A DNA stretch of 64,000 nucleotides, from the NCBI RefSeq assembly GCF_003568865.1, contig NZ_CP031115.1, positions 620,001 to 684,000 on the forward strand. Direction: 5' to 3'. The translations under genes and the position numbers were made by a program. A model generated the notes under the pieces. It was not told the DNA's origin. It was given only the letters and a program-made list of their open reading frames with translations, and made no database searches. This DNA comes from Rubrobacter indicoceani (GTDB lineage Bacteria > Actinomycetota > Rubrobacteria > Rubrobacterales > Rubrobacteraceae). Shown here piece by piece: positions 32,087 through 46,502 of this stretch. Numbering within the stretch: the first letter of the stretch is position 1; every line of letters starts with the position of its first letter.

Positions 32087-32884
32087 TCACGTCGGCCTGC
32101 CGGGGGCGAGGTTTGCGTCGCCCCGAACGAACTTCAGGGCCGCCACAAGAGCTGCCAGGGCCGGAAGGGCAAAGACAACCGCAAGGACGGAGGTGATGAC
32201 GGGGTCGTTGCCCGAGGCGGCGGAGAAAAGGAGCATCGGCAGGGTCAGGACGCTCCCGCCTCCGACAAGGACCGTCAGGATGTACTGGCTCCAGGAGACG
32301 AGAAACGCGAAAAGCGCGGCGACGGCCACGCCGGGTACCGCCTGCGGAAGCGTCACGTGCAGAAAAGCCCGGAAGGGCGACGCGCCCAGGGTGCGGGCCG
32401 CCTCCTCCATCTCGCCCGTCATGTCGGCGAAGACGCTTGCGAGGATGATCGCGGTGTAAGGGACGGTCGGGATAAGATGAACGAGAAACACCCCGAGAAG
32501 TGTATCCGCAAGCCCGAGCCGGATAAACGTCAGGTGGATCCCCATCGTCGAGGCCAGGGGAGGGACCATGACGGGGAGCAGCACCAGAAACACCACGAGC
32601 CCCTTTGCCCGAAAGGCGTACCCGCCGATCGCCATCCCCGCCGGAAGCCCGACCGCGACCGACGCCACCGTCGCACCGACCCCGACGACCAAGCTGTTTA
32701 CGAACGCCTCCGAAAAACGGTTCCCCCCGAGATACGACCAGCCGCGCAGCGTCCACTCCGTTGGCAGAAGCTCTGGGAACTGCCACTCTCCCGCGAAAGC
32801 CCACAGGACAAGCGGCACGAACGGCAGCGCGACCAGCATCGCCGCAACGAAAAGCCAGATATCGTGACGACGTTTCTTTATCAC
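32087..32884 (-). CDS. ABC importer permease, second subunit
   Basis: 265 residues with six membrane helices. The EAA loop that contacts the ATPase is EEAARTLGASPFRAFLHVTLP. Its ATG overlaps the TGA of the preceding permease gene by four bases, so the two are coupled. Together they replace the single fused permease of YnjC-type systems. Domain BPD_transp_1. Confidence 0.88.
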   Translation of the reverse strand: MIKKRRHDIWLFVAAMLVALPFVPLVLWAFAGEWQFPELLPTEWTLRGWSYLGGNRFSEAFVNSLVVGVGATVASVAVGLPAGMAIGGYAFRAKGLVVFLVLLPVMVPPLASTMGIHLTFIRLGLADTLLGVFLVHLIPTVPYTAIILASVFADMTGEMEEAARTLGASPFRAFLHVTLPQAVPGVAVAALFAFLVSWSQYILTVLVGGGSVLTLPMLLFSAASGNDPVITSVLAVVFALPALAALVAALKFVRGDANLAPGRPT

Positions 32885-38691: not shown

Positions 38692-39135
38692 ATGCCGAAC
38701 CCCGAGGCCCACATGCGACGCGCCATCGAACTTGCAAAGAAAAACCCCTCACAGCCGTTCGGGTGTGTCATCGTAGACAGGCAAAACAACATCGTCTCCG
38801 AAGCCTTCAACGACGGCGAGAACCCCGTTCGGCACGGAGAAACGGCGGCGATCTACGACCTTGCATCGAAGGGAACGGACTCTGAATGGCGAGATCTGAC
38901 CCTCTACACGACCGCCGAGCCGTGTCCGATGTGCGCCGGGGCCGTGCTCTGGTCCGGCATCGGGCGGGTGGTTATAGGGACTTCCATCGAGACGCTCGTT
39001 GCGCTCGGGCTGCCGCAGATAGACATACCGCTTCACGAAGTCTTGGAACGTGCCTCCGAAGACTTCACCCCGCCGGAGGTAGAGGCCGGGTTTCTCGAGG
39101 CCGAGTGCGACGCGCTCTACCGGAGCATCTCCTAG
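38692..39135 (+). CDS. nucleoside/guanine deaminase-type zinc enzyme
   Basis: 147 residues of the cytidine-deaminase fold. Zinc ligands are in RHGETAAI (His with catalytic Glu) and TTAEPCPMCAGAVLWSGI (two Cys). HGE rather than HAE occurs in guanine-deaminase-like members. Substrate could be guanine, cytosine or a tRNA/nucleoside. Its stop shares CTAG with that of tyrA on the other strand. Confidence 0.88.
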   Translation: MPNPEAHMRRAIELAKKNPSQPFGCVIVDRQNNIVSEAFNDGENPVRHGETAAIYDLASKGTDSEWRDLTLYTTAEPCPMCAGAVLWSGIGRVVIGTSIETLVALGLPQIDIPLHEVLERASEDFTPPEVEAGFLEAECDALYRSIS

Positions 39136-40187
39136 CCGAGAACCTCCGAGGCGAAGCCGGAATCTCCAAGGAGCTTTCTTGCGGGCGCGACGGATTCCGA
39201 GTCAACGGTCAGGACAAGGGCGGCGCGTTCGGTGTTTGAGTGGCGCACGTAGAGGTCAAGGATGTTGATCGAGTTCGACCCCATGAGCGTCGTGACCTCG
39301 GCGAAGGTGCCAGGGCGGTTCTCGACCGGGATGGCGAGGTCCACGTTCTTTCCGCTTTTCTCTACAAGGATACCGCCGAGCGTGTCGTAGGCTTCGCGCG
39401 CGTCGGAGAAGCGACGTGTGATGGACTTTCTGTTCTCGACTTCCGCGCCGAGTTCTTCCAGCGTCTTGACGAAGTCTTCAAGGACTTCCTGAACCGCCCC
39501 GGAGTTCTCGGAGAGGATGTCCGACCAGAGTTCCGGGTTGGACGCGCCGACGCGGGTGAGGTCGCGGAAGGCCGGCCCGGCAAAGGAGAGCGCCTCGGGG
39601 GAGATGCCGGCGGCGACGTCGAGAAGGGCGGCGGCCATCATGTGCGGCAGGTGGGAGAGGGCGGCCATGAGCAGGTCGTGTTTCTCTGGTTCGACGGCGG
39701 TCGGAACGGCGCCGAGGGTCCGGACGAAGCTCTGGACTTCGCGGTAGTCTTCCGGGTCGGTACGGTCGGTGGGGGTGAGAAAGTAGCGCGCCCCGGTAAA
39801 GAGGTCGGCCCTTGCGTTGGCGACGCCGGAGAGCTGGCTTCCGGCCATCGGGTGTCCGCCGACAAAGCGCAGGCCGGACGCCTCGGCTGCGGCTACGATG
39901 CCCCCCTTCGTGCTGGCGACATCGGTTATCAGGGCGTTCGAGCCGGAGAAGCGGGGGAGGGTTTCCTTGATCCTCGATATCGGAGCGGCAAGAACGATAA
40001 CATCGGAGGCGCGCAGTTCGGTGAGCGTCGCCGCCCGGTCTATCGCCCCGACCGCCTCCGCAGCGGCGAGCGACCCCGGGAGATCAACGCCCGACACGTG
40101 CCAGCCCGCCCGTCTTGCGGCGAGGCCGACGGAGCCGCCGATCAGACCGACCCCGAAGATCCCGAGCCGACCCGCACCGTTTTTCAG
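39132..40187 (-). CDS. tyrA: prephenate dehydrogenase with C-terminal ACT domain, CTG start
   Basis: Oxidatively decarboxylates prephenate for tyrosine synthesis. 351 residues: NAD fold at the very start (GRLGIFGVGLIGGSVGLA), GGHPMAGSQLSGV, ALSHLPHMMAAAL, and an ACT regulatory domain from ENRPGTFAEVTTLMGSNSIN. The first conventional start codon, GTG at 40097, would remove the dinucleotide loop. Upstream the only candidate is CTG at 40187, with GGAGG seven bases before it and overlapping the hisC TGA as CTGA. No in-frame ATG, GTG or TTG was found further upstream in the part checked. Confidence 0.9.
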   Translation of the reverse strand: MKNGAGRLGIFGVGLIGGSVGLAARRAGWHVSGVDLPGSLAAAEAVGAIDRAATLTELRASDVIVLAAPISRIKETLPRFSGSNALITDVASTKGGIVAAAEASGLRFVGGHPMAGSQLSGVANARADLFTGARYFLTPTDRTDPEDYREVQSFVRTLGAVPTAVEPEKHDLLMAALSHLPHMMAAALLDVAAGISPEALSFAGPAFRDLTRVGASNPELWSDILSENSGAVQEVLEDFVKTLEELGAEVENRKSITRRFSDAREAYDTLGGILVEKSGKNVDLAIPVENRPGTFAEVTTLMGSNSINILDLYVRHSNTERAALVLTVDSESVAPARKLLGDSGFASEVLG

Positions 40188-41254
40188 GAGACGGCCTCCG
40201 TCCGGCCCGAGACAGCGGCTGCGACGCGGTCGTTCTCCCCCCGGTTGCCGACCGTTACGCGGCTCCAGCCGGGGTAGCCGAGGGCCTCGCCCTCGCGCAC
40301 CAGCACCCCGCTTCTCTCAAAGTCCGGGGCGGTGAAGCCGACCATGATGAAGTTCCCCTGCGATGGGATGTACTCAAGGCCCGCCTCGCCGAACGATCTC
40401 TGCAGCCGGGCGCGCTCCCCGATAACGAACCGCGCCCGCTCGGCAACCTTCTCCCGCGCCAGCATCGAGGCCGTTGCGGCGACCTGCCCGGCGAGGTTTA
40501 CCGAGACCGGGAACCGGACCCGCTCGGCGTAGTCGGCGATCCCCCCGGAGGCGATCCCGTAGCCGACCCTGAGACCGGCCAGCCCGTGAGCCTTGCTGAA
40601 CGTCCGCGCGACAAGGACGTTGTCGAACTCAAAAGCCAGCGCGTGAGAGCCCCGGTACGAGGGGTCGTCTATAAACTCCACGTAGGCCTCGTCGAGCAGA
40701 AGAGCGACGTTGTCCGGCAAAGCCCCGGCGAACTCTCTGACCTGTTCGAGCGTCAGGTAAGTCCCGCTCGGGTTGTTCGGGTTGCAGAGGATAACGGCCC
40801 GCGTCTCGGATGTGACGGCGGCGAGCAGGGCTTCGGTGTCGAGGTCGCCGGAGCTTCTCAGGGGAACCTGCCTTGCCTTCATGCCGAGTATCGCGCACAT
40901 CGCCGGGTAGAGGCTGAAGGACGGCCAGGGGAAAACAACCTCGCCCGCCGGAAAAAGCTGCAGAACGTTGAAGAGAACCTCGCTCGAACCGTTGCCGACC
41001 AGAACGTTGGACGGGGCCGAGCCGGGGTTCGCCTCCGCAACGACCTGCCGGAGGCGCGAGACGTGGCTGTCGGGGTAGCGGTTCAGCCTCGACAGTACCT
41101 CGCAGACCGCGGCCTCGGCCTCGGGGAGCGGGCCGAAGGCCAGTTCGTTTGAGGTGAGCTTTGCGTAGCGGTCCTCATCCTTGCCTTCGGCGGCCATCCG
41201 CCAGGTTTTCGGGGGGACGTAGGGTTTCAGCGGGTCTAGTTCGGCTCTGAACAC
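40184..41254 (-). CDS. hisC: histidinol-phosphate/aromatic aminotransferase
   Basis: 356 residues, fold-type I PLP enzyme. YAKLTSNELAFGPLPEA, GNGSSEVLFNVLQLF, CNPNNPSGTYL, DEAYVEF and the Schiff-base Lys in ARTFSKAHGLAGLRVGY are all in place. Next to tyrA, it probably transaminates 4-hydroxyphenylpyruvate or histidinol phosphate. GTG at 41254 has AGGAG five bases before it; the outer frame to 41392 runs into the promoter of the divergent kinase unit. The gene ends with TGA inside the tyrA start. Confidence 0.9.
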   Translation of the reverse strand: MFRAELDPLKPYVPPKTWRMAAEGKDEDRYAKLTSNELAFGPLPEAEAAVCEVLSRLNRYPDSHVSRLRQVVAEANPGSAPSNVLVGNGSSEVLFNVLQLFPAGEVVFPWPSFSLYPAMCAILGMKARQVPLRSSGDLDTEALLAAVTSETRAVILCNPNNPSGTYLTLEQVREFAGALPDNVALLLDEAYVEFIDDPSYRGSHALAFEFDNVLVARTFSKAHGLAGLRVGYGIASGGIADYAERVRFPVSVNLAGQVAATASMLAREKVAERARFVIGERARLQRSFGEAGLEYIPSQGNFIMVGFTAPDFERSGVLVREGEALGYPGWSRVTVGNRGENDRVAAAVSGRTEAVS

Positions 41255-46192: not shown

Positions 46193-46502
46193 AGGGGGCT
46201 TGGATCCCGAACGACGCCGGAACGGTGAGCGAACCGTTGTCGGGACGGTCCGGTGGTTCTCGGAGGAGAAGGGTTTCGGGCTTATAGGGTTGCCGGACGG
46301 GGGTTGTGTCGTGGTGGATCATCCGGGCATCGCCCCCCTCGGAGCCAACGGCGAGACAAACGGCTTCCGGGTTCTTGCGGGTGGTCGCAAGGTGGAGTTC
46401 GAGCTCGTGCAGAACTCCAGCGGGAGGCTGTGCGCCGTCGGGGTCAGGGAAGTCGGCGCGAAAGACGGCGGAGAATTCACAGAAGGGGGGGCTGATCTTT
46501 GA
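46182..46502 (+). CDS. cold-shock domain protein
   Basis: Up to 106 residues. TVRWFSEEKGFGLIGLPDGG with VVVDHPGIAPLG is a diverged cold-shock domain: RNP1-like KGFGLI is present, RNP2 is altered to VVVDH. A TTG at 46200 is an alternative start; the ATG at 46182 lies within the end of htrA and lacks an SD. The C-terminal 30 residues are acidic. Its stop overlaps the rpiA TTG (TTGA). A nucleic-acid role is likely, but divergence leaves some doubt. Confidence 0.7.
   Translation: MGSRGGLDPERRRNGERTVVGTVRWFSEEKGFGLIGLPDGGCVVVDHPGIAPLGANGETNGFRVLAGGRKVEFELVQNSSGRLCAVGVREVGAKDGGEFTEGGADL

Follow-up and report, generated by a model that had tools for sequence, protein, structure and literature searches.

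How does a gene begin when its reading frame offers no ATG, GTG or TTG (hereafter, conventional starts) ahead of a conserved part of its protein? The question is raised by tyrA, a putative prephenate/arogenate dehydrogenase gene of Rubrobacter indicoceani (genome G000, 3.08 Mb in 3 contigs), which lies directly downstream of hisC in the 64,000-nucleotide stretch of the main contig that we analysed (NZ_CP031115.1, positions 620,001 to 684,000; the window). The original prediction had placed the start of tyrA at a CTG overlapping the hisC stop codon, and we find that frame, protein family and relatives (36 genomes with tyrA) all support it. Thus tyrA probably starts at CTG 40187, a position that is well supported. 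We also infer, with fair though not full confidence, that a ribosome, having terminated on hisC, starts again at the overlapping CUG, aided by a Shine-Dalgarno sequence. The features concerned, all on the minus strand, are as follows.

40184 to 41254, minus strand: hisC, histidinol-phosphate/aromatic aminotransferase family, with last codon TCC (Ser) and stop TGA at 40186-40184
40195 to 40199, minus strand: GGAGG, Shine-Dalgarno-like, within the 3' end of hisC and 7 bases ahead of the CTG
40184 to 40187, minus strand: CTGA, in which the probable tyrA start CTG (40187-40185) shares 4 bases with the hisC TGA stop, as judged from the sequence and relatives
39132 to 40187, minus strand: tyrA, putative prephenate/arogenate dehydrogenase with PDH_N, PDH_C and a C-terminal ACT-like domain, 351 amino acids from the CTG
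40134 to 40154, minus strand: GVGLIGG dinucleotide-binding loop, residues 12-18 counted from the CTG, from the translation and alignment to solved TyrA chains
40095 to 40097, minus strand: GTG, the 31st codon and first conventional start of the tyrA frame, 3' of the glycine loop; not taken as the start

A probable tyrA start on the hisC stop

The 3' end of hisC reads ...GAG GCC GTC TCC TGA, and the tyrA CTG consists of the last C of hisC and the TG of its stop. The hisC product matches Pfam Aminotran_1_2 and scores 246.8 bits against TIGR01141 (hisC), below the cut-off of 276.55. The two genes share a strand, overlap by four bases in an NTGA (N, any base) and stand in frames related by -1. As had been predicted, GGAGG lies seven bases before the CTG, and the loop GIFGVGLIGG precedes the first conventional start, which is GTG 40097. 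The predicted anti-Shine-Dalgarno pairing upstream of the CTG is -9.5 kcal/mol, a value attained by 3.1% of the 1381 CTGA sites that 400 kb of this chromosome contain; the site is good, though not unique.

The CTG had also been described as the sole in-frame option. The 43 open tyrA-frame codons 5' of the CTG (up to a TGA at 40319) do lack conventional starts, but other near-cognate codons exist: CTG 40268, 27 codons upstream and inside hisC, and ATC 40160, CTG 40145 and ATC 40142, which fall on or within strand b1 or the glycine loop. By the sequence, these suit an intact Rossmann fold beside a ribosome-binding site less well than CTG 40187 does. A start at CTG 40268, ATC 40160 or CTG 40145 would keep the tyrA frame, yet we consider it improbable: the first would add 27 residues out of the hisC frame that have no counterpart in uncoupled relatives starting at the overlap column, and the other two would truncate strand b1 or the glycine loop.

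The protein itself places the start ahead of the loop. The CTG product matches PF02153 (PDH_N, 98.8 bits) and PF20463 (PDH_C, 86.8 bits), both above cut-off. It reaches no NCBIfam equivalog cut-off (best, NF005107, 211.8 bits against 414), and by these profiles it is a TyrA homologue that may use prephenate or arogenate. Nine of 10 solved prephenate dehydrogenase chains align from residue 7-10 of the CTG product, strand b1 included. Since the solved chains and most curated profiles begin to align within residues 6-11, b1 and the GxGxxG loop belong to the TyrA family. Most curated TyrA profiles start only a few positions from that residue, whereas the product of GTG 40097 enters about 30 profile positions in, without strand b1 and GVGLIGG, both of which are present only when translation starts at the CTG. 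No conventional start in the window yields the conserved protein. Because G000 has a single PDH_N match, tyrA itself, and proteins of the Biopterin_H (phenylalanine hydroxylase) family are absent from all 39 family genomes searched, TyrA is probably needed, and a tyrA without its coenzyme loop would probably leave no obvious tyrosine route. A dispensable tyrA was rejected on the same absence of Biopterin_H.

The pattern of substitutions dates the onset of coding to the same place. In 13 independent genome pairs, differences at the three codon positions of the tyrA frame are even just before the start (47, 41 and 37) and move to position 3 after it (16, 7 and 37, then 6, 1 and 42 at the glycine loop), which places the coding onset at the overlap. 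The signal at position 3 is weaker in the first seven codons than further in. G000 was left out of these pairs; its overlap sits three codons further from the loop.

The junction in other Rubrobacteraceae

We searched 39 Rubrobacteraceae genomes (a class-level search gives the same 39). tyrA was matched in 36, and the junction was read in every one of them, four loci resembling copies of counted genomes having been left out. In 28 of the 36, the two genes overlap by four bases, the tyrA start being CTG in 10 genomes (G000, G001, G013, G014, G017, G021, G024, G028, G029 and G031), GTG in 8, TTG in 6, ATG in 3 and ATA in one (G033, as an ATAA overlap). The eight non-overlapping genes have GTG (4) or ATG (3), save that of G011, which has no start at this column and a TTG further up. 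Since uncoupled relatives other than G011 use GTG or ATG at the overlap column, that column is an ordinary start site wherever the two genes are apart. None of the eight starts at CTG, and non-conventional starts number 11 of 28 where the genes overlap against 0 of 8 where they are apart (Fisher p = 0.076). In seven of the 10 CTG genomes, the stretch from -40 to -2 codons relative to the loop holds no conventional start.

These relatives bear on two other accounts. A missed base upstream, joining tyrA to a normal start, had been named as the case that would overturn the prediction. An error of sequencing or assembly may befall any one genome, but as a general account it is already refuted, and we give it next to no weight: 27 other genomes share the 4-base overlap and frame, G001, the other genome of the genus, independently has CTGA, and eight further genomes have CTGA at the same junction. 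Alternatively, hisC might be joined to tyrA by programmed -1 frameshifting or by bypass of the stop. tyrA would then need no start codon, and this one would be free to drift; the tyrA frame is indeed the -1 frame and stays open through the end of hisC. We regard this as very improbable, as no slippery heptamer is seen by eye at GTCTCCTGA, an ordinary ATG or GTG fills this column in those relatives that show a gap or have TAG as the stop, and the two g3 genomes have hisC and tyrA some 320-620 bases apart.

CTG starts at tyrA occur in four of the 12 genera with tyrA (g1, g8, g10 and g12). On a TyrA tree of 34 rows (G005 and G008 were dropped as too short), the CTG label requires four changes, of which well supported branches impose at least three. 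At the start codon, the first base doubles as the wobble base of the last hisC codon, which is TCC in eight CTG genomes and AGC and GGC in the other two; from TCC or GGC, each conventional NTG start needs just one silent change. The first base of the tyrA start can therefore drift silently where that codon is TCC (Ser). C at four-fold sites is retained at 58-85% between sister genomes, and the retention of CTG looks like that expected of a neutral site. We claim no selection for CTG, only a lack of purging.

Control junctions and the proposed restart

The overlap geometry had been said to recur elsewhere in the window, and two more such overlaps are indeed called there, TTGA at 46499 (plus strand), at a gene that we take to be rpiA, and GTGA at 32884 (minus strand). 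For comparison with tyrA we used seven junctions, at genes that are presumably nuoJ, nuoK and nuoL (hits in 18/30 loci each), hypC and hypD (19/24 each) and rpiA and mog (30/30 each). Rows without an overlap, or with a TAG or TAA stop, were left out. The controls gave 101 NTGA with A, G or T, two CTGA with a conventional start nearby and a lone CTGA, that is, one in 102 comparable overlaps. Set against these, the 10 CTG to 17 conventional starts of tyrA differ at Fisher 3e-7, relatedness ignored. The lone control CTGA, at hypD of G024 (L164), has no conventional start nearby in frame, and the gene looks instead as if it began at an ATC (IKYVSEF, compared with MRFVSEF in G000).

At mog, the first base of the overlap is A in 10, G in 10, T in 9 and C in none, while C makes up 53.5% of neutral four-fold sites in tyrA; at tyrA it is C in 10 of 27, only mildly below neutral (p = 0.064), and the two junctions differ at Fisher p = 2e-4, relatedness ignored. 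It appears from these sequences that CTG is generally rejected at overlaps and tolerated at tyrA. A genome-wide excess of lone CTGA was considered and rejected: among lone NTGA overlaps it makes up 2/18 in 464 kb of G000, 1/25 in 400 kb of G013 and 1/16 in 400 kb of G024, or 4/59 with tyrA itself counted. Lone CTAG, ATAG or CTGA motifs also stand at the starts of long coding frames at L301:17493, L302:10384 and L309:17806 (G013) and L325:5815 (G024), and are candidate non-conventional starts.

Termination-reinitiation at 4-base overlaps is established (PMC6728339, PMC10666635), and hisC-tyrA has the same geometry as its ATGA/GTGA forms, with a -1 frame shift and a Shine-Dalgarno sequence inside the upstream gene. 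By this likeness, we suggest that a ribosome ending at the hisC UGA would stay on the messenger RNA, anchored by the GGAGG near the end of hisC, step back one base and restart with fMet-tRNA on the overlapping CUG. Such a ribosome, which stands over the stop codon already and has GGAGG close by, would need less from the start codon. Coupling may thus be the reason why CUG suffices. All four NTG codons would then be tolerated at this junction, whereas C is barred from most others in these genomes. CUG may be tolerated here because little TyrA is needed, and it might also serve to limit the amount of TyrA made.

Ordinary new initiation through GGAGG, with the hisC overlap incidental, seems to us a less likely course, though one to be taken seriously: the GGAGG is well spaced, with predicted pairing of -9.5 kcal/mol, and mpg in the same genome has a lone CTG with GAGGAGG upstream. 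However, neither CTG nor ATA starts any of the eight uncoupled tyrA genes, and the ATA at tyrA and those at truB, described below, likewise sit on stop overlaps. A globally relaxed initiator tRNA was rejected, as the genome's one GGGCTCATAACCC tRNA-Met has the canonical stem, with no M1-like change found in the three G-C pairs of its anticodon stem, and other junctions reject C.

Several points weigh against reinitiation on CUG. CUG pairs poorly with the initiator and initiates poorly in E. coli (PMC11497404). With a median of -6.15, where the background averages -3.1, predicted Shine-Dalgarno pairing is moderate to strong at the 10 CTG sites, but it is no stronger than at GTG sites (mean -6.78 compared with -7.38). 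Hence the Shine-Dalgarno sequence alone does not explain the use of CUG, and compensation for CTG by stronger pairing is not seen in this comparison. CTG is not forced in three of the 10 CTG genomes (G021, G024 and G028), where a GTG precedes the loop by 19-28 codons. The contrast between coupled and uncoupled genes reaches only p = 0.076, among related genomes; without both genomes of this genus, the tyrA count falls to 8/26. Finally, the controls were chosen for having a conventional start in G000 and tyrA for having none.

Near-cognate starts are themselves known. Initiation at CUG on E. coli ribosomes has been described structurally (PMC11497404), and the seven strongest E. coli start codons include CUG and AUA (PMC12350097). 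Switches to CUG are nevertheless very rare, at 2 of 61,358 ancestral AUG, 1 of 5,080 GUG and 1 of 2,468 UUG (PMC5622118), in contrast to the 10 of 36 CTG starts of tyrA in this family. Conserved, Shine-Dalgarno-aided non-canonical starts include AUU in S. aureus cvfC1, that of ccpN, and AUU/AUA in infC (PMC13009471). tyrA likewise probably keeps a weak near-cognate start across relatives with the help of Shine-Dalgarno pairing; those are single genes said there to be attenuated for regulation, whereas the tyrA CTG overlaps a stop and has been gained or lost several times at one junction.

truB, mpg and a possibly relaxed start rule in the family

A start on an upstream stop codon also appears, from the sequences, to be the rule for truB of Rubrobacteraceae, at an ATA. 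truB was matched in 37 of the 39 genomes and its junction read in 30 (L265-L294). An upstream TAG or TAA overlaps its frame in 25 of these, as ATAG or ATAA in 24 (for example L282:1486-1489 and L273:1486-1489), and in 22 of those 24 the interval from -25 to -4 codons of the DKP motif is free of conventional starts. The last codon of the upstream gene, which in G013 is NrnA-like at a score below cut-off, is CGA in 10 genomes, AGA in 8, GGA in 4, and GCA and CAA in one each: the amino acid varies, and the final A is constant. Because A precedes only about 11% of sampled TAG or TAA stops, its presence in 24 of 25 truB overlaps (10 of 11 genera) greatly exceeds what chance would give. Sampled overlaps with these stops show no clear enrichment of ATA in general, which marks truB as special; the truB ATA itself is identical within all eight genome pairs compared. 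In G013, TIGR00431 (TruB) enters at profile position 2 at residue 7 after the ATA, and at position 23 from the first conventional start. In G000, an ATA lies four bases after the upstream TAG and is followed by a CTG, and either may be the start.

In mpg (DNA-3-methyladenine glycosylase) of G000 and G001, the column that is ATG, GTG or TTG in other genera holds only CTG, with GAGGAGG upstream (L109:15309-15311 in G000; L236 in G001). TIGR00567 begins at residue 7 of the CTG product, whereas a product of the first conventional start would enter it at profile position 60. Several g4, g6 and g10 genomes (L237, L238, L241-L243, L245, L247, L249, L251, L252, L258) have no ATG, GTG or TTG in mpg before the conserved FYxRD, only a CTGA or CTAG on the upstream stop, three codons before that motif, in a shifted column.

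Other genes of G000 may be of the same kind. Coding signal extends at least 10 codons before any conventional start in 31 of 405 tested calls, tyrA included, many of them weak or explainable. In a polysaccharide deacetylase gene (L112:15864-16643, minus strand) and a SpoU methylase gene (L109:10135-10821, plus strand), it precedes any conventional start, with possible CTG and ATC/ATA starts. infC (IF-3), a known rare-start gene that begins at AUU in E. coli, lacks in G000 (L109:8230-8802) any conventional start ahead of the first conserved residues, where ATC/ATA and a short leader open reading frame preceded by a Shine-Dalgarno sequence are found.

Near-cognate starts and reinitiation at stop overlaps are thus already known; a lone CTG start would be no more than a curiosity, but here CTG recurs at the same junction, is missing where the genes are uncoupled, and is joined by the AUA of truB. 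The 4-base overlap forms named in PMC10666635 are ATGA and GTGA, whereas tyrA has CTGA and truB ATAG or ATAA. Searches of one literature library listed, by title and abstract, no paper on a tyrA CTG, a truB AUA or CTGA and ATAG/ATAA overlaps.

CUG and AUA starts are regarded as near-forbidden in bacteria. We put at about even the chances that the start rule of Rubrobacteraceae is locally relaxed at stop overlaps, a terminating ribosome accepting CUG at NTGA and AUA at ATAG or ATAA, with tyrA, truB and mpg (CTG, in this genus) as natural cases. If so, these cases would be invisible to gene callers limited to ATG, GTG and TTG, which mis-start or clip such genes and would leave a TyrA without its coenzyme loop. 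The tyrA CTG, which persists or recurs in four genera although a silent change could restore ATG, GTG or TTG, and the AUA of truB provide natural test cases of whether termination-reinitiation loosens the checking of start codons. Their recurrence among relatives suggests that ribosomes of this family, on completing a gene, can begin again at codons normally considered too weak.
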